64,000 bases of DNA from Methanoculleus caldifontis (lineage in GTDB: Archaea; Halobacteriota; Methanomicrobia; Methanomicrobiales; Methanoculleaceae). The position numbers were made by a program, and so were the translations under genes. The stretch covers positions 1-64,000 of the forward strand of contig NZ_WBKO01000001.1 of NCBI RefSeq assembly GCF_032842345.1. The letters are read 5' to 3'. The notes below the pieces were generated by a model. The model saw only the letters and a program-made list of their open reading frames with translations. It did not search any database and was not told the DNA's origin. Shown here piece after piece: positions 43,671-53,776 of the stretch; within the stretch, counting starts at the first letter, position 1, and each line of letters opens with the position of its first letter.

Positions 43671-43820
43671 TCACTCCCCCTTCAGGTAGGCCTCGGGGTC
43701 CCGCTCGAAGAGCTTCTTGCACCCCGGAGCGCAGAAGTAGTAAGTCTTCCCCTTATACTCGCTCTTGAACTTCGCGGTCGCCTCGTCGACGTCCATATCG
43801 CATACCGGATCAACTGCCAC
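43671..43820 (-). CDS. 49-aa YHS-domain protein behind copA
   Basis: Read from GTG at 43820: [20 protein letters not shown], then [20 protein letters not shown] and a closing DPEAYLKGE. It carries the whole YHS motif (VCDMDV..., YYFC..GC...F...P). YHS domains bind metal. The GTG lies inside the last codons of copA (11-bp overlap) and has GGAGG 9 bases upstream, so translational coupling is clear. A copper-chaperone or metal-handing role for CopA is likely but inferred. Confidence 0.85.
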
Positions 43821-46275
43821 GTGCATCAACCTCCGACATCATCCCTCTCTTCACCGGAGGTATATATGTCTTGAGCAGCAGCGAGAGCGAGACGACCGTC
43901 ACCGACGAGAGGGCCATCGCGAGCGCCCCAAACTCCGGCCGGAAGGTGATGCCGAAGAAGGGGTAGAGCACGCCTGCCGCGAGCGGGATGAGGGCCGAGT
44001 TGTAGGCGAACGCCCAGAAGAGGTTCTGCTTGATCCGGCTCATCACCTTCCGGGAGAGTTCGATGGCCGCGACGGCGTCGACGAGGTCGTCGCGGATCAG
44101 GACGATATCCCCGCTCTCGATCGCGACGTCGGTCCCGCTCCCGATCGCGATCCCGACGTCCGCCTGCGCGAGCGCCGGGGCGTCGTTGATACCGTCGCCC
44201 ACGAACGCCACGACCTCGCCCCGCTCCTGGAGAGCGCGGACCTCCCGTGCCTTTTCCTGCGGCAGCACCCCGGCGTGGACGTCCTCGATCCCGACCTCCC
44301 GCGCGATGGCGTTTGCCGTCCGCGGGTTGTCGCCGGTGATCATCGTCACCGTAAGACCTATCTTTTTGAGGTCCGCAATGGCCGCCTTCGTCGTCGGTTT
44401 GAGGGTATCGGCGATGGCGAGGATGCCCGCGAACCTGCCCGCGGCGGCGACGAGCACTGCGGTCTTCCCCTCGTCCTGGAGGGCGGCGATCCGGCTCTCC
44501 GCTTCGGGGGGGACACCGATGCGATACTCGTCGAGGAAGGGCTGGTTCCCGATCAGGACCTCCTCCCCCTCCACCACGGCGCTCACCCCTCTGCCGCCGA
44601 AGGTCGTGAACCGCTCCGATGCCGGGACGCTGACGCCGGCGCTCTCCGCCCGCCGGACGACCGCCTCCGCGAGCGGGTGCTGGGAGTTCTTCTCGACCGC
44701 CGCCGCGAGTGACAGGAGCCGGCCCTCCCCCATCCCGGCCGGAACGATATCGGTGACGTCGGGCTTCCCCCGGGTGAGCGTCCCGGTCTTGTCGAAGATG
44801 ACCGCGGTCAGCTTCTCGGAGATCTCAAGCGCCTCGCCGTTCCGGATCAGCACCCCGAGTTCGGCGCCCCTCCCTATCCCGACGGTCACGGCGGTCGGGG
44901 TAGCGAGACCGAGCGCGCAGGGACAGGCGACGACCAGGATCGAGATCAGGACCGTGAGCGCAAAGAGGAGCGTGGCATCCAGGACCAGGTACCACACGAG
45001 GAAGGCGACGGTGGCGATCGCGAGGACGACCGGGATGAAGTAGGAGACCGCGACGTCCGCAATCCGCTCCACCGGAGGCTTCGAGCCCTGGGCGTCCCGG
45101 ACGAGCCTGATGATCTGCGAGAGGACCATGTCCTTCCCGATCTTCTCGGCCCTGACCCGGAGGACGCCGTTCACGTTCAGGGTGCCGCCGACGACCCCGT
45201 CGCCCTCCCTTTTATCGGCCGGGATGGGCTCGCCGGTGATCATCGCTTCATTGACGGAACTCTCGCCGCCCACGACCAGGCCATCCACCGGCACCTTCTC
45301 CCCCGGCCGGACCAGGATGACGTCGCCGACGACGACGTCCTCGATGGGGACCTCGACCTCCCGGCCGTCGCGGATCACCGTCGCGGTCTTCGGCCGCAGG
45401 CCGATCAGTTTCTTGATGGCATCCGACGTCCTCCCCTTCGCCCGGGCCTCCAGGTAGCGGCCGAGCGTCAGGAACGAGGCAAGCATCACCGCGGTCTCGA
45501 AGAAGTTGAAGGCCGGGGTGAGGACGATATTGAAGGTGCCGAGGAGGCTTGCCCCGTAGGCGACGCCGATCCCCATCGCGTACATGACGTCCATCGTCAG
45601 CGCCCGGTTCCGGAGCGCCGCCGCGGCCGCCTTGAAGATCGGGGCGCTGACGTAGACAAAGACCGGGAGAGTGATGACGAGCATGACGAGGTTCACGGAG
45701 ACCGGGAGTGCTCCCATCCCCGGCATCCCGAAGAGCATGTAGAAGAAGAGGGGGATGCTGACCGCAAACCCGACCGCGAAGCGCCGGAACTTGTCACGGA
45801 GGTCCTCCTCCCGCATCCGGGCCTCGACGTCCTCGGAGACCTCCTCCTCGAGCCCCAGGTACTGGTAGCCGGCATCCTCGACGGCGGCCCGGATATCGGA
45901 GATCGTGACGAGTGCGGGGTTGTAGACGACCCGGACGTTCTCGGTCGCGAGGTTGACCCGGGCCTCGTAGACCCCCTCAAGATCGGTGAGCGAGATCTCG
46001 ATCACCTGGGCGCAGGAGGCGCAGACCATCCCGCCGACTCTGACGGTGACCTCGTTCCTCACGACCTCGAATCCGGCGTCGCCGACAGTCCGCTCGAGGT
46101 CGGCGAGGGTGGCCCGCGTCGGGTCGTACTCGACGGTGGCGGTCTCGGCCGCGAGGTTGACCCGGGCCTCGTAGACGTCGTCCCGGCCCTGGAGGGCCTT
46201 CTCTATATTGAGAGCGCAGGACGCGCAGTGCATCCCGGAGATCTTCAGCTCCGCCTTTCGTCTCTCCTCCGGCAT
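43810..46275 (-). CDS. copA: copper-translocating P1B-type ATPase
   Basis: 821 aa from the ATG at 46275, giving [20 protein letters not shown]. Two N-terminal HMA domains (GMHCASC; GMVCASC), eight membrane segments, the actuator loop [13 protein letters not shown], transport motif [11 protein letters not shown], phosphorylation motif [14 protein letters not shown]-binding HPLAEAVV, and [23 protein letters not shown] plus double HMA indicates Cu+ export. The start region is preceded by TATA-like sequence on the divergent side of the HEAT genes. Confidence 0.96.
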
Positions 46276-46432: not shown

Positions 46433-47296
46433 GTGCAGAGAAGGGATCTTCCGATAGGAGAATCACGAGAAGAGAAGCGATACGATCTTGAGCGCATGAC
46501 GTCGGGGCGGGACACCGGCGGTCTGACCGAAGCGTTGCAGAACAGCAGCGATCCGGTCGTCCGCCGGAATGCCGCACTCGCCCTCGGCGCGCTCGGCGAA
46601 TGGAGGGCGGTGGACCCACTCATCCGCGCGCTCGCCGACCCGGTCCAGGGTGTCCGGGAAGGGGCGGCGAACGCGCTCGTGATGGTCGGGACGCCGGCGG
46701 TCGAGCCGCTGATCGATCTCCTCGAGCGTCCCGGCGCCGCGGCGTACGGGCTGCCGCGGGAGGCGCCCTGGGAGGGGCTCACGCAGGTCGACCTGCTCGG
46801 AGGCCCCGAGGGCATACCGCTTGCAAAGAGGAGGCTCCGGCACACGGGGGGTATCACCCAGCACGACATGCTCGGCGGCCCGGAGGACCTCCGGGGAGCG
46901 GGAGCCGGGACGTCCCGCGATACGGAGGAGGAGATCACCCAGCACGACCTCCTCGGCGGGCCGGCGGATGTCGGGACGCGAAAGAGTCTCCGGCATCGCG
47001 AACTCGCGCAGCACGATCTCCTCGGGGGTCCGGCAGATGCGAGGGAGCACGAGGCCCTCTTCCCCGGAGCCCGGAGAGCGGTTGTCGTGCCGGAAGGCGC
47101 CCTCCCCGGCATGGGCATCCGCCGGGCATACGCCGCCGTCATCCTCGGCGAGATCGCCGACCCGCGGGCCGAGGGCCCTCTCGGCCGGGCGCTCAACGAC
47201 AGCGACCCCGCCGTCCGGAGGGCGGCCGAGGACGGGATGGCGCGGTACCGTGAGAGACGGGGGGCACCGACGCCCGTTCCGCCGGCGTCCCGCTGA
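46433..47296 (+). CDS. HEAT-repeat protein with a four-copy QHDLLGGP insert
   Basis: 287 aa from a GTG at 46433 with GAGGTG seven bases upstream. Residues 30-100 are two or three HEAT/PBS-lyase repeats (PVVRRNAALALGALGEWRAV, PVQGVREGAANALVMVGTPA), and residues 228-272 resume the HEAT pattern. Residues 103-225 hold an insert with four copies of T/A-Q-H/V-D-L/M-L-G-G-P-E/A at 117-127, 142-152, 169-179 and 192-202. The paralogue next door lacks it. Function unknown; HEAT scaffolds bind proteins or enzymes' prosthetic groups. Confidence 0.87.
   Translation: MQRRDLPIGESREEKRYDLERMTSGRDTGGLTEALQNSSDPVVRRNAALALGALGEWRAVDPLIRALADPVQGVREGAANALVMVGTPAVEPLIDLLERPGAAAYGLPREAPWEGLTQVDLLGGPEGIPLAKRRLRHTGGITQHDMLGGPEDLRGAGAGTSRDTEEEITQHDLLGGPADVGTRKSLRHRELAQHDLLGGPADAREHEALFPGARRAVVVPEGALPGMGIRRAYAAVILGEIADPRAEGPLGRALNDSDPAVRRAAEDGMARYRERRGAPTPVPPASR
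46781..47038 (+). repeat. four degenerate repeats coding the (T/A)QHDLLGGP motif
   Basis: Coding units at 46781-46813, 46856-46888, 46937-46969 and 47006-47038 share the protein motif QxDxLGGP; the DNA differs at third codon positions, so these are old repeats kept by selection on the protein or gene conversion, not fresh tandem copies. Confidence 0.8.
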
Positions 47297-47404
47297 TGCC
47301 GGGACAGACCACCCTCTTTTTCCGGCCCCGCGGCCGACCTGTTTCTGCCGGAGAAGGTTCTTATACCGGTGGGGCGTCATACGCCGGAACCGGAGGCGAA
47401 AAGA

Positions 47405-48352
47405 TTGGAGCAAGGAGGAAGTTCTCTCGCGGAGCAGCAGGGCGAGAGGCGGTACAACATCGATCTTCTGCGGGCTGAGAAGGATGCGGACGGTCTGGTC
47501 GAGGCGCTCGGGAGCGGTAACGGGCTGACCCGCCAGCGGGCCGCCCTGGCTCTCGGAGACCTCGGCGGGCCGGGAGCGGTCGAGCCGCTCATTCGGGCGC
47601 TCGGCGACCCGATGACGGCGGTGCGGGAAGCGGCGGCAGACTCGCTCACCATGCTCGGGAGCGCAGCGGTCGGGCCGCTGGTCGAACTTCTCGAGAGCCC
47701 GGAGGCGTCGGGGAGGTACGAGGAGCCGGGAGCCCCCGGAGGCGCGGCGACTGTGATCGGGCCCGGCGGCCGGACCTGGGAGGTCGAGACGCGGAGGGAG
47801 ATCCGGCGGGTTTACGCAGCCGCCATCCTCGGCGAGGTCGGCGATCCCGACGCGGTGCAGCCCCTCGTCCGGGCACTCGGAGACGCGAGCGACGACCTCC
47901 GGTGCCAGGCGTCCGGGGCGCTCGCGAAGCTCGGGAACGAGGTGATCGGGCCGCTCACGGAGGTGCTCACCGGATCGGATCCGGAGCAGCGGATCGTCGC
48001 GGCCGGCGTCCTCGGCGATACCGGCGACCCGGCCGTGGTGGAGCCGCTCATCAATCTGCTCCGCGACGGGAATCCGGATGTCCGGGGGGCGGCGGGGGGC
48101 GCCCTCTTCCGGATAGGCGACGCCGCGGTCGAGCCGCTGATCGCGGCGACGAAGGACGCCGACCGGAACGTCCGGCTCTACGCCGCGGGGGCGCTCAAGT
48201 ACATCGGCAACCCGCGGGCGATCGATGCGCTCAAAGACCTCGCCCGGAGCGGGGATGCCGAGGAGAAGAGCGTCGCAGAGGACGCGATGGAGAAGATACG
48301 GATGGTCCGGGGCAAGGCCGCGCCGGAGCCCTCGGCGCCGACATCAAGGTGA
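47405..48352 (+). CDS. HEAT/PBS-lyase repeat protein
   Basis: 315 aa from a TTG at 47405 with GGAGG eight bases upstream; a TATA-like CTTATACC at 47359-47366 lies upstream, which argues against an earlier GTG at 47369. About seven HEAT repeats of ~31 aa run through the protein (GAVEPLIRALGDPMTAVREA, DAVQPLVRALGDASDDLRCQ, AVVEPLINLLRDGNPDVRGA). It is a tandem paralogue of the upstream HEAT gene: both open with RYDLE/RYNID and a G(L/D)...EAL stretch. Its linker has GAPGGAATVIGPGGRTWEVE in place of the QHDLLGGP block. Confidence 0.88.
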   Translation: MEQGGSSLAEQQGERRYNIDLLRAEKDADGLVEALGSGNGLTRQRAALALGDLGGPGAVEPLIRALGDPMTAVREAAADSLTMLGSAAVGPLVELLESPEASGRYEEPGAPGGAATVIGPGGRTWEVETRREIRRVYAAAILGEVGDPDAVQPLVRALGDASDDLRCQASGALAKLGNEVIGPLTEVLTGSDPEQRIVAAGVLGDTGDPAVVEPLINLLRDGNPDVRGAAGGALFRIGDAAVEPLIAATKDADRNVRLYAAGALKYIGNPRAIDALKDLARSGDAEEKSVAEDAMEKIRMVRGKAAPEPSAPTSR

Positions 48353-48558: not shown

Positions 48559-49013
48559 TCATACCTTGTCTTCATGTGGGACCGCAACATCAGCCATATA
48601 TCGTTGATTTACGCGGAGGCGGGAAGACGTAAAGTCCGTGTGGTTGTTGGCGATCCGTCTCACGCCTTCCTTGAACGTCCCTGCACCAAAATTTATCAGC
48701 AGGCCCAGAGAAAGTTGCATCAACCGGAGATACGTCAACACCTGCTTGGCATGAACTGGAGCAATTCTTTCGACAGATTTAACTCAACCACCAGACAACC
48801 TTCCACCAGTAAATCCACCCGAAGACCATCGTCAAAGTGCATCCCATCGTAATCGAACGTCACGGACTTCTGCCGTTCCACCTGCAATCCACGTTTTTCT
48901 AGTGTCTGGGCAAGGACAGCCTCATAGACAGATTCGAGCAGCCCTGGCCCCAGATCCCGGTGCAGGTGGTAAGCCGCATCAACGACAACCGACGAGACCT
49001 CCTCCACATTCAT
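48559..49013 (-). pseudogene. GxxExxY family protein, broken by a single-base frameshift
   Basis: From the ATG at 49013 the frame reads MNVEEVSSVVVDAAYHLHRD, then LGPGLLESVYEAVLAQTLEK with the family motif G-x-x-E-x-x-Y, and LRVDLLVEGCLVVELN, after which it goes out of frame and stops at 48735. One extra base near 48776-48783 restores KSVERIAPVHAKQVLTYLRL and continues through MQLSLGLLINFGAGTFKEGV to a stop at 48559, the normal end of the family. A deletion in an A-run (TTAAATC on the minus strand) explains it. The GCGAAG repeat ends 16 bases upstream of the ATG. Function of the family is unknown. Confidence 0.85.
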
Positions 49014-49028
49014 AAACACCCTCCTTTC

Positions 49029-49055
49029 TTTCGCGTTCTTCGCGGCTTCGCGTGA
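49029..49055. repeat. inverted GCGAAG element right of the GxxExxY gene
   Basis: The reverse complement of this segment, CTCACGCGAAGCCGCGAAGA then ACGCGAA, is the same unit as 48431-48454 in the opposite orientation, so the GxxExxY gene is flanked by inverted copies. Confidence 0.75.
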
Positions 49056-49239
49056 GACAGGAAACAAAACCAGGTACGAATTCTGGAGTCCCCGGCCATA
49101 CAAATGCCTCGTCGACTCTCCGGAACATGAAAGTGCGCCGTGCAGGGTGAAAATGGTCGACCAGGAGCACCACCCCGTGTTTCGTCAGTCGATACATACA
49201 TCCAGTAATGTTCAAGCTCCGTTTCTGCAGAGTGGGAAC

Positions 49240-49255: not shown

Positions 49256-50506
49256 TTATCTTCTTCTCCGCACCCGCACCGACTCCGCGTGGGCGTGGAG
49301 CCCCTCCGCGTCGGCGATCGTCTCCACCACATCGCCGATCGCCTCAAGGCCTTCCCGCGTGATCACCTGGACCGTCGAGCGCCGGCAGAAGTGGTTCACG
49401 TCGAGGCCCGAGTAGAGCCGGGCGTATCCTGCCGTCGGGAGGACGTGGTTCGTCCCCGAGGCGTAGTCACCGCAGGCCACCGCCGCGTAGGGGCCGACAA
49501 AGATCGATCCGGCGTTCCGTATCCGGTTGAGGACGGCAAGCGGGTCGGCCACCTGGACCGAGAGGTGTTCGGGGGCGATCCCGTCGACGGTCGCGACGGC
49601 CTCGTCGAGGTCGCCGGCGACGATGTAGCCGGAGTGCTCAAGCGCTTTTGCGACGATCTCGCGGCGCTTCGCCTCCGCGGCCATCCGCTTCACCTCGGCC
49701 CCGACCGCATCCGCGATCCTTGCATCGGTCGTCACCAGGACGCAGGCGGCGTTCGGGTCGTGTTCGGCCTGCGCGAGGATATCGGCCGCGACAAAGGTCG
49801 GGTTCGCCGTCCCGTCTGCGAGGATCGCGATCTCGCTCGGCCCCGCCGGAAAGTCGATCTCGGCCTCGTCCCGGAGAAGCATCTTCGCCGCGGTGACGTA
49901 GACGTTCCCCGGCCCGACGATCTTCTCGACCCGCGGGACCGTCTCGGTCCCGAGCGCCATCGCCGCGATCGCCTGGGCGCCGCCGACCCGGTAGATCTCG
50001 TCGACCCCGGCGATATCGAGCGCGACGAGGGTGATCGGGCTCGTCGGCGGCGGGGTGCAGCAGCAGATCTCCGCGACGCCCGCGACCTTCGCCGGGATCG
50101 TGCACATCAGCGCCGTCGAGGGGTATGCCGCCCGGCCGCCGGGGACGTAGGCGCCGATGCGGGATAAGGGCGTCGTCTTGACGCCGAGGGTGACCCCCGG
50201 CTCCATCTCCTGCAGCCAGAGGTCGCGCCCGCGCTGCAGCTCGTGGAACCGGCTGATCCGCGCTTCCGCCTCCACCAGGCTCTCGACCAGTTGCGCGTCC
50301 ACCTGATCGTAGGCCGCCTCCCGCTCCTCGTCGGAGACGGCGATCTCCTCAAGATCGATCCCATCGAACTTCTTCGTCAGGTCGAGGAGGGCCGCGTCGC
50401 CCTCCGCCCGCACCCTCCCGACGATCTCAGAGACCGGTCCCTTCACCCGGTCGAGGTCCGACCGCCGTCCGGCGAGCCACGTCTCGATATCCAGCGCCTG
50501 CCACAT
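49256..50506 (-). CDS. hisD: histidinol dehydrogenase
   Basis: Oxidises histidinol to histidine in two NAD-dependent steps. 416 aa, normal length. Visible: YVPGGRAAYPSTALM, KIVGPGNVYVTAAK, the metal/substrate region IDFPAGPSEIAILADGTANP, AQAEHDPNAACVLVT, and near the C-terminus APEHLSVQ, HVLPTAGYARLYSGLDV. No other his genes are in the window. Confidence 0.97.
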   Translation of the reverse strand: MWQALDIETWLAGRRSDLDRVKGPVSEIVGRVRAEGDAALLDLTKKFDGIDLEEIAVSDEEREAAYDQVDAQLVESLVEAEARISRFHELQRGRDLWLQEMEPGVTLGVKTTPLSRIGAYVPGGRAAYPSTALMCTIPAKVAGVAEICCCTPPPTSPITLVALDIAGVDEIYRVGGAQAIAAMALGTETVPRVEKIVGPGNVYVTAAKMLLRDEAEIDFPAGPSEIAILADGTANPTFVAADILAQAEHDPNAACVLVTTDARIADAVGAEVKRMAAEAKRREIVAKALEHSGYIVAGDLDEAVATVDGIAPEHLSVQVADPLAVLNRIRNAGSIFVGPYAAVACGDYASGTNHVLPTAGYARLYSGLDVNHFCRRSTVQVITREGLEAIGDVVETIADAEGLHAHAESVRVRRRR

Positions 50507-50730: not shown

Positions 50731-51771
50731 ATGAAGGTACTCCGCCTATGTGCGCTCACATGTTTCCTCATCGTCGCCGCGGTCCTGTTCTCCGGCTGCA
50801 CGACGAACACCGACTCGACACCCGCCGGGAACGTCCAGGTGAAGGTCTTCCATGCAGGAAGCCTGACCGGACCGTTTGAGAAGGTGAAAGCGGCGTTCGA
50901 GGCCGACCACCCCGGCGTCACCGTCCTCCTCGAGCCCGCCGGCAGCGTCGACTGCATCAAGAAGATCACCGAGAACGGCAAACCCGCCGACGTCCTCGCC
51001 TCCGCCGACTACTATCTCATCCCGGAGATGATGATGCCCGAGGACGCCGACTGGTACCTCACGTTCGCGAAGAACCGGATGGTCCTGACCTACTCGAACG
51101 AGAGCAGGTACGCAAATGAGATCACCGCCGAGAACTGGTATGAGATCCTCGCCCGCGACGGCGTCCGGTGGGGCTTTGCCGACCCGAACTCCGACCCCTG
51201 CGGCTACCGCACCCCGATGGTGATCCAGCTCGCCGAGGGCCACTACGGGGACGACCGGATCTTCGAGACCCTGGTCGGGGCGAATAGCAAGATCACGGTC
51301 ACCGAGGAGAACGGCACCTCCACGATCCACGCAGCCGACCCGAAGCCCAGCGGCGGTAAGATGGTCATCCGGCCTAAGAGCGTCGAACTCGTCCAGATGG
51401 TCCAGTCCGGCGGACTCGACTACGCCTGGGAGTACAGGAGCGTCGCGGTCCAGAACGACCTCCGCTTCATCGAGCTCCCCGAAGAGATCGACCTCTCGTC
51501 GGTCGAGTTCGCGGAGACCTACGCGAGCGTCCGGACCGAGGCGAAGAAGGGCAACGGCACCACGCTCTACGCGGGCTCGCCGATCGTCTACGGCGTGACC
51601 GTCCCGAAGATCGCACAGCATCCCGACCTCGGCATCGAGTTCGTCGAGATGCTGATCGGCGCCACCGGCCAGGAGATCCTCACCGCCGACGGCCAGCCCC
51701 CGATCGTGCCTGCGGACGGTTACGGCAGCGTCCCGGCCGGCCTTCAGCCGCTCGTTTCGATGCAGGCCTGA
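50731..51771 (+). CDS. wtpA: tungstate/molybdate ABC transporter, substrate-binding protein
   Basis: 346-aa lipoprotein. Signal and lipobox LIVAAVLFSGC with C23. The binding fold has VKVFHAGSLTGPFEKV, EPAGSVDCIKKI and NSDPCGYRTPMVIQLAE, typical of archaeal WtpA/ModA proteins. It captures tungstate or molybdate outside the membrane for WtpBC. Mo/W is needed by formylmethanofuran and formate dehydrogenases. Specificity between the two oxyanions cannot be read from sequence. Confidence 0.93.
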   Translation: MKVLRLCALTCFLIVAAVLFSGCTTNTDSTPAGNVQVKVFHAGSLTGPFEKVKAAFEADHPGVTVLLEPAGSVDCIKKITENGKPADVLASADYYLIPEMMMPEDADWYLTFAKNRMVLTYSNESRYANEITAENWYEILARDGVRWGFADPNSDPCGYRTPMVIQLAEGHYGDDRIFETLVGANSKITVTEENGTSTIHAADPKPSGGKMVIRPKSVELVQMVQSGGLDYAWEYRSVAVQNDLRFIELPEEIDLSSVEFAETYASVRTEAKKGNGTTLYAGSPIVYGVTVPKIAQHPDLGIEFVEMLIGATGQEILTADGQPPIVPADGYGSVPAGLQPLVSMQA

Positions 51772-51837
51772 ACCCCCCTCTTTTCCGACAGACTTTCAGC
51801 GAAGCGGACACAAACAGGGTATCAGCAACAGACGGAC

Positions 51838-52728
51838 ATGAAGACTGAAACGCTCTCAACCGACCCCCTCCCGGCAGAGTGTGGCGGAGATATCCGCCCC
51901 GCCACCCGGTGGAAGGGGCACCGGGGACGCTACGTAGACTGGTGCACCATCGGGTTCTGCATCCTCGGTGCGCTGCTCGTCGGAATCACGGTGCTCGCGA
52001 TCGCGAGCATGGCCTCGGCGGAGCTCGCGAACCCCGCCCACCTCATCGAGGTGGCGACATCGTCTGCGGTGATCCACGCGATCCTCCTCACGTTCGGTGC
52101 GGGAGCGAACGCCGTCCTCCTCCTCGTCCTCTTCGGGACCCCGCTCGCCTACGTCCTCGCCCGGGCGCGCCCCTCCCGGTTCAAAGGGATCGTCGAGAGC
52201 ATCGTTGATATCCCCCTCATCCTGCCGCACACCGTGGCGGGCCTGCTCGTCTACCTCCTCTTCATGCGCAGGGGATGGCTCGGCGCCCCGCTCTCGGAGA
52301 TCGGGCTCGCGTTCGAGGACGCCTACCCGGGGACGGTCGTCGCGATGCTCTTCGTCGCCTCGCCGTTCTACGTCAACACCGTCAGGGAGGGCTTCGAGAA
52401 AGTGCCGGTCCACCTGGAGAACGTCGCCCGCACGCTGGGTGCCGGGACCTTCACCACCTTCCGGACGGTCACGCTCCCCTTAAGCCTCCGGCACGTCTAC
52501 AGCGGCGCCGTCCTCGCCTGGGGGAGGGCGATCGGGGAGTTCGCCGGCGTCGTCATGATCGCCTACTACCCGTTCATCATATCGACGCTGATCTACTACT
52601 CGTTCACGACGGACGGCATCAACACGAGCAGGAGCATCGCCTTTGCGGTCATCCTGATCAGTTTCGGGGTCTTCTACCTTCTCAGACGGATGACCCGGTT
52701 CATGGGGAGGTACGATGATCGCGTTTGA
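51838..52728 (+). CDS. wtpB: tungstate/molybdate ABC transporter, permease
   Basis: 296 aa. About six membrane segments. The ABC-coupling EAA-type loop reads EKVPVHLENVARTLGAGTFT then FRTVTLPLSLRHVYSG and WGRAIGEFAGV. A 40-residue hydrophilic N-terminus precedes the first helix. The end overlaps wtpC by 14 bp. Confidence 0.93.
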   Translation: MKTETLSTDPLPAECGGDIRPATRWKGHRGRYVDWCTIGFCILGALLVGITVLAIASMASAELANPAHLIEVATSSAVIHAILLTFGAGANAVLLLVLFGTPLAYVLARARPSRFKGIVESIVDIPLILPHTVAGLLVYLLFMRRGWLGAPLSEIGLAFEDAYPGTVVAMLFVASPFYVNTVREGFEKVPVHLENVARTLGAGTFTTFRTVTLPLSLRHVYSGAVLAWGRAIGEFAGVVMIAYYPFIISTLIYYSFTTDGINTSRSIAFAVILISFGVFYLLRRMTRFMGRYDDRV

Positions 52729-53776
52729 CCGGGTCTCGCTCAACTTAGGCTCGTTCCGCTTGAAGGACGTCAGCCTCACGATCGGTAAGGGCGACTACTA
52801 CTTCGTCGTCGGACCGTCCGGTGCGGGAAAGACGGTCCTCCTCGAGGCGATCGCCGGCCTTCATTCGCCCGAGCACGGCCGCGTCCTCCTCCGGGGCGAG
52901 GAGATCACCGCGCTCCCGCCGGAGAGACGGGGGGTCGCCCTCGTCTACCAGGACTACTCGCTCTTCCCGAACATGACGGTCAGCGACAACGTCTCCTACG
53001 GCCTCCGGGTCAGGGGGATGCGGAAGGCGGAGGCCAGGAGTGGGGTCGCCGGCCTCCTCGAACGGTTCGGGATCGCCCATCTCGCTGACCGCTACCCGGG
53101 CACCCTCTCCGGCGGGGAGCAGCAGCGGGTGGCGCTCGCGAGGGCCGTCGCGGTGAAACCAGACATCCTCCTCCTCGACGAACCCCTCTCGGCCCTCGAC
53201 CCGGTCACGCAGGAGAAGTTCATCGAGGACCTCCGGCGCCTCCACCGGGAGGAGGGGCTCACCATCGTCCAGGTGAGCCACTCGCGCCGGGAAGCCCACC
53301 TCCTCGCCACCCGGGTGGCGGTGATCATCGACGGGGCCCTCGTGGACGAAGGAGAGGCCGGCGTCGTGCTGAACGCGCCCAAGAGCCGCGAGGTCGCCTC
53401 GTTCGTCGGGGTCGAGAACATCCTCGACGGGAGAGTGACGGCAAACGAGGACGGGCTCGCGACAGTGGATGCCGGGGGACGGACGTTCGAGGCGGTGACG
53501 GAGGCAGCCGCGGGCGAGAAGATCACCCTCTGCATCCGGGCCGACGACGTCGTCATCGCCGTCGGTGGCGAACGCCGCTCCAGCGCCCGGAACACGATGG
53601 CCGGGACGGTCGTCTCGGTCGCAGAGAACGGCCCCGTCGCCGAGGTGAAGGTGGACAGCGGCGTCGTCCTGACCGCGGTCCTGACCCGGCGGTCGGTGCG
53701 CGACCTCGCGCTCGCGCCGGGCACCCCCGTGACCCTCTCGGTCAAGGCGACGGCGATCCACGTCATCCGCGGGTGA
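52715..53776 (+). CDS. wtpC: tungstate/molybdate ABC transporter, ATP-binding protein
   Basis: 353 aa. Walker A GPSGAGKT, Q-loop VYQDYSLFPNMTV, signature LSGGEQQRVALARA, Walker B ILLLDEPLSAL, and H-loop VSHSRREAHLLA. The C-terminal ~110 residues form a TOBE/Mop-type domain, which in molybdate transporters binds the oxyanion and can inhibit transport. Third gene of the wtpABC operon. Confidence 0.95.
   Translation: MIAFDRVSLNLGSFRLKDVSLTIGKGDYYFVVGPSGAGKTVLLEAIAGLHSPEHGRVLLRGEEITALPPERRGVALVYQDYSLFPNMTVSDNVSYGLRVRGMRKAEARSGVAGLLERFGIAHLADRYPGTLSGGEQQRVALARAVAVKPDILLLDEPLSALDPVTQEKFIEDLRRLHREEGLTIVQVSHSRREAHLLATRVAVIIDGALVDEGEAGVVLNAPKSREVASFVGVENILDGRVTANEDGLATVDAGGRTFEAVTEAAAGEKITLCIRADDVVIAVGGERRSSARNTMAGTVVSVAENGPVAEVKVDSGVVLTAVLTRRSVRDLALAPGTPVTLSVKATAIHVIRG

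Follow-up and report, generated by a model that had tools for sequence, protein, structure and literature searches.

A conserved short-motif array within a HEAT-repeat protein of Methanoculleus

A HEAT-repeat gene of Methanoculleus caldifontis carries four copies of a nine-residue motif in a long loop. The array is real and conserved, and combines a new motif with an architecture of a known kind. The gene (gene 1, or HEAT1) lies beside a tandem paralogue (gene 2, or HEAT2) in the window, the 64,000-nucleotide stretch of contig NZ_WBKO01000001.1 analyzed here. Our preferred reading, to which we assign a probability of roughly one half, is that the HEAT protein of gene 1 serves as a scaffold through a disordered, multivalent array of docking sites that was gained once, HEAT2 being a weaker candidate for its partner.

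The gene pair and its motif array

Gene 1 (46433..47296, + strand) has a GTG start, encodes 287 aa and matches HEAT_2 (E 5e-22). Upstream lie a Shine-Dalgarno-like site, GAGGTGAT, and a TATA-like element, TTTTATAC, and these, like the start, are largely kept in relatives. Gene 2 (47369..48352, + strand; 327 aa, exact start codon uncertain) matches the same family with E 3e-43. The two share 48% identity across residues 8-106 of the N-terminal part (E 1e-19). Gene 1 consists of N-terminal HEAT repeats, the motif loop and a short HEAT C-terminus, and is without the C-terminal repeats present in gene 2. The latter encodes a complete HEAT solenoid, in which the site of the array is taken by a short loop lacking the motif. 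An initial sequence-only reading of this DNA had described a 120-residue insert missing from the paralogue; the gene 1 loop in fact measures about 129 residues and gene 2 has one of about 35 at the matching site, a net difference of about 95. The gene 2 loop (47681-47800) and those of its orthologues have their own recurring stretch, T.GPGG..WE...R. Very long HEAT-repeat open frames also occur elsewhere in the genome (G000:C2:163857-167090 and C2:453374-458581; 1461 and 1557 aa).

The motif-bearing loop spans residues 101-229 (46733..47119, + strand). Translation and the alignment of relatives place four units within it, all on the + strand: TQVDLLGGP at residue 117 (unit 1, 46781..46807), TQHDMLGGP at residue 142 (unit 2, 46856..46882), TQHDLLGGP at residue 169 (unit 3, 46937..46963) and AQHDLLGGP at residue 192 (unit 4, 47006..47032). 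The first reading's description of four [TA]Q[HV]D[LM]LGGP units at 23-27 residue spacing, two of them preceded by LRH, was accurate: the spacings are 25, 27 and 23 residues, and LRH stands directly before units 2 and 4. In most relatives unit 1 has V, F or I in place of H, and the aligned position of unit 3 is the most conserved nine-residue window of the protein. As derived from sequence, the consensus is [IL]-[TA]-Q-[HV]-D-x-[LFY]-[GA]-G-P. The first reading knew of no HEAT protein with this motif; consistent with this, no library names it, and at a threshold as loose as E 1 Pfam still finds nothing in the insert.

A chance origin of the repeats is ruled out by shuffling of the loop and by a genome-wide pattern search with a reversed control. 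The loop holds four non-overlapping 9-mers within 8/9 identity, against a maximum of one in 1000 shuffles. Over the 2.6 Mb genome, a degenerate DNA pattern for the motif matched exactly the four gene 1 units; its reversed form, used as control, matched nothing. A PCNA-binding PIP box (Qxx[ILM]xx[FY][FY]) was also considered and rejected, the sixth and seventh positions after Q being G and P rather than aromatic in 72/72 units.

Purifying selection acts on the motif peptide. Among 15 gene 1 orthologues (Nei-Gojobori, pairs pooled), dN/dS was 0.10 for motif columns and 0.28 for both linkers and HEAT parts, a contrast that arises partly from column choice, as the motif columns were picked by the motif itself, although the class of each column was decided by majority over rows. 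Within the loop, four of five motif windows exceed every non-motif window in conservation; one of 46 surpasses the fifth. All 72 units of these orthologues have Q, D, G and P at motif positions 1, 3, 7 and 8; position 2 is H (57), V (12) or F (3), and positions 4-5 are hydrophobic. Constraint on the D is weaker in the sister genus and in one further genome, where E, Q or A may replace it. Between the four units of the window, pairwise synonymous differences number 1.5-5 per ~7 sites and nonsynonymous differences 1-3 per ~20. These counts bear out the initial claim that third positions had diverged around a constant motif. That reading had also held that selection acts on the peptide, naming a high nonsynonymous rate between units as the result that would tell against it; nonsynonymous change is low.

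Distribution and history of the locus

The motif-bearing gene was found in 34 genomes, 32 in the window's genus group and two in a sister genus, in a protein search that covered the order (150 genomes) and a profile search that covered the class (232 genomes). The class search returned none outside these two genus groups, Methanoculleus and its close kin. Across 393 genomes of the phylum the motif pattern matched in 12, all of the window's genus. A profile scan of an 84,980-species genome collection gave 25 confirmed loci, all titled Methanoculleus, Methanomicrobiales or Euryarchaeota MAGs, and 40 further pattern matches that were not relatives by tblastn. The motif is hence genus-wide, and the first reading's concern that it might occur only here does not hold. 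Most proteins have 2-5 units at a spacing of 23-28 residues; one truncated contig shows a single unit. A lone pattern match in another genus (L062) was attributed to chance, lying on the strand opposite a polyprenyl-synthase-like ORF. A viral origin was rejected, as none of 28 pattern stretches in viral contigs encodes a relative, and plasmids gave no match to the gene. In Methanoculleus sp. MH98A (L068:8743-10611) genes 1 and 2 read as one long frame, with an apparent frameshift past the first post-loop HEAT helix that may be a draft-assembly error.

Gene 2 accompanies the array in 28 of the 32 carriers of the window's genus group. The four carriers in which it was not found are MAGs of 80-87% completeness. 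In three of these, gene 1 is reduced to two units (G124, which is L092, and L090/L091, matched to G152/G154 by coordinates), and one, the fragmentary and incomplete G155, keeps four. Gene 2 without gene 1 was not seen among the searched genomes of the genus. In the two sister-genus genomes, the array and a full HEAT part lie within one chain. Genomes usually retain or lose both genes, and in the sister genus both parts form one chain, which supports a putative shared task.

The HEAT genes of most genomes lie between copA, which is transcribed divergently, and hisD; in the exceptions gene 2 is further off. In the window, copA (43810..46275, - strand; copper-type P1B ATPase, TIGR01511 E 1e-183) is the left neighbor of gene 1, as it is wherever a contig reaches that far, and hisD (49256..50506, - strand; TIGR00069 E 3e-156) is the right neighbor of the pair. 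A gene for a GxxExxY small protein (48735-49103, - strand; TIGR04256 E 2e-22; cluster c21) stands between gene 2 and hisD in the window and occurs in some relatives only, an apparent insertion at the locus. Beyond hisD, 50731-53776 holds a gene for the tungstate-binding protein WtpA (TIGR03730 E 8e-119) and the genes following it, a neighborhood that recurs throughout Methanoculleus, with an inverted orientation in some genomes (L073, L076).

Several genomes have hisD and copA directly adjacent with nothing between: G004 and G010 of the window's genus, G104, and the outgroups G008 and G014. An argument for a functional link to copA or hisD was accordingly rejected; the neighborhood is older than the HEAT genes and so gives no functional hint. 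Outside the genus, G139 has one motif-free, gene-2-like HEAT gene at this site. The sister-genus genomes G076 and G116 have a single gene there, in which five units precede a full HEAT C-terminus. A decayed gene 1 remnant (L157:1805-2255) and no gene 2 were found in G132, of the window's genus. In the CopA tree, the window's protein has its nearest relatives in Methanoculleus sp. UBA77 and UBA430, and G004 and G010 fall inside the genus, so the absence of the system from these two is best read as loss. Both genomes are near-complete, which indicates that the system is dispensable.

Single-chain motif-bearing genes cluster with gene 1 (97/88), not with gene 2, in the HEAT tree. Under the best tree, a duplication would have preceded a single gain of the array; the sister genus would then have lost gene 2, and gene 1 would have been truncated here. 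Making genes 1 and 2 sisters costs only 4.2 log units (AU p = 0.09), and the gene 1 stem branch is long (0.63), making long-branch effects possible. The originally proposed order, duplication and then insertion, is thus that of the best tree, with the other order less favored but still plausible; the proposal missed the single-gene relatives. Since the array and a complete HEAT C-terminus occur together in these, gene 1 probably also lost its C-terminal repeats. Origin of the single long gene by recombination of tandem genes 1 and 2 is disfavored, its C-terminus falling outside all HEAT2 sequences (100/99). The array was probably gained once, in the Methanoculleus ancestor, at one locus between copA and hisD.

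Predicted structure and candidate roles

AlphaFold2 models of gene 1 (23 orthologues) gave HEAT helical hairpins with pLDDT about 90 and a loop mostly at 33-58. Values below 50 at residues 105-117 and 134-224 place the motif copies in a predicted disordered region. For a single-chain relative (432 aa, 34 sequences), the solenoid was well predicted on both sides of a loop largely below 50. Neither model placed any unit on the solenoid with confidence, that of the single-chain relative being a monomer from a shallow alignment; both predicted short helices in or beside some units. As AlphaFold2 gives the loop no confident structure, we read the protein as an alpha-solenoid bearing a putative short-linear-motif array. 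The closest solved folds are alphaRep designs, MTH187 and other HEAT/ARM solenoids, several of which have bound peptides or proteins, a likeness of fold that is no proof of function.

In our preferred reading, an inter-repeat loop of the small solenoid of gene 1 would have grown into a disordered array of 2-5 short linear motifs, each unit serving as a docking peptide. The multivalent scaffold would then gather several copies of one partner, or one partner with several sites. The early proposal of a scaffold or a repeated partner fits the predicted disordered array and is retained here in the same conditional form. More weakly, HEAT2 might act as partner or co-scaffold, since its solenoid groove could hold a peptide and its presence or absence usually follows that of gene 1. 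Against the preferred reading stand the models, in which no unit docks with confidence, the four units that G155 keeps with no HEAT2 found, and the absence of the whole system from G004 and G010.

A structural role for the array is the strongest rival, although we consider it unlikely. The units would be degenerate segments, helical or capping, packed against their own HEAT stack or a second copy of gene 1, fixing solenoid shape or oligomer instead of recruiting a partner. The predicted short helices agree with this, as does the fused relative, whose single chain has a HEAT block on either side of the array, and the motif superficially resembles a HEAT inter-helix turn (LGGPGAV in gene 2), with similarities of 25-29 nt. 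However, loop pLDDT is low in both models, Pfam detects no HEAT repeat in the loop, the inter-unit linkers are poorly conserved and unit number varies.

A narrower form of the docking reading is somewhat more doubtful still: the motif would be a dedicated ligand of the HEAT2 solenoid, a self-docking ancestor having split into a 'peptide' gene and a 'groove' gene. If true, this would be an archaeal multivalent solenoid-peptide assembly, kept paired genus-wide.

Repeat expansion, in which the units would be a by-product of DNA-level duplication with little function of their own, is strongly disfavored. Copy number does range from 2 to 5, and extra units resemble copies of the 27-residue type, but the motif codons show high synonymous and little nonsynonymous change between units and between species, and unit positions are orthologous genus-wide, which makes the array old. 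Metal binding by the His/Asp-rich repeats (LRH...QHD), matching the copper-type ATPase encoded divergently beside gene 1, is the least probable reading: that neighbor is constant and a typical unit has one or two His and one Asp, yet copA and hisD adjoin without HEAT genes elsewhere, the loop is without Cys ligands, the His is replaced in most species' unit 1 and in 15/72 gene 1 units overall, and the sister genus has Q for His in some units and Q, E or A for D while Q, G and P stay.

Relation to known systems

Scores against HEAT_2 of 78.5 bits for gene 1 and 146.5 for gene 2 (cut-off 27.7) place both among HEAT alpha-solenoids (PF13646/PF03130). Outside the loop, both thus match the HEAT_2/HEAT_PBS (PBS-lyase-like) proteins of archaea and bacteria well above cut-off; we know of no described member with the motif array of gene 1. 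The best solved matches are MTH187 and the alphaRep designs, the latter described as based on thermostable HEAT-like repeats. Identity of gene 1 as a phycobilin lyase (CpcE/CpcF) or NblB was rejected, with 47/27/25 bits against NCBIfam cut-offs of 330/220/300.

Multivalent short-linear-motif scaffolds, with repeated docking peptides in disordered regions, are well described in eukaryotes. Gene 1 shares with them a predicted disordered loop, a conserved core of 9-13 residues, variable copies and faster linkers. Unlike them, it is archaeal and genus-restricted, and its array lies inside a HEAT solenoid. To our knowledge the motif is not among known short linear motifs, and disordered docking-peptide arrays have hardly been described in archaea.

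PBS domains were reported in 9/10 alpha-solenoids detected in M. marisnigri (PMC3837014). The same paper, citing PMC2666748, links OE2401F, a HEAT_PBS protein of Halobacterium, to archaeal chemotaxis. Like gene 1, OE2401F is an archaeal HEAT_PBS-type protein, and it acts through protein-protein contacts; the comparison is at the level of the HEAT fold. In contrast to OE2401F, no chemotaxis or archaellum genes were seen beside the HEAT pair here. A literature search on the gene 1 protein or its motif found no paper. Both HEAT proteins and linear-motif arrays belong to known kinds. In the sources searched, we found no description of this motif, of its conservation throughout the genus or of its occurrence within an archaeal HEAT protein.

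Gene 1 is a compact, genus-wide example from archaea: its consensus is strict, and variants of 2-5 copies, a single-chain form, losses and a pseudogene all occur naturally. The two-gene system is thereby tractable for a partner search, and for following how a solenoid gains an array and splits its parts between two genes.
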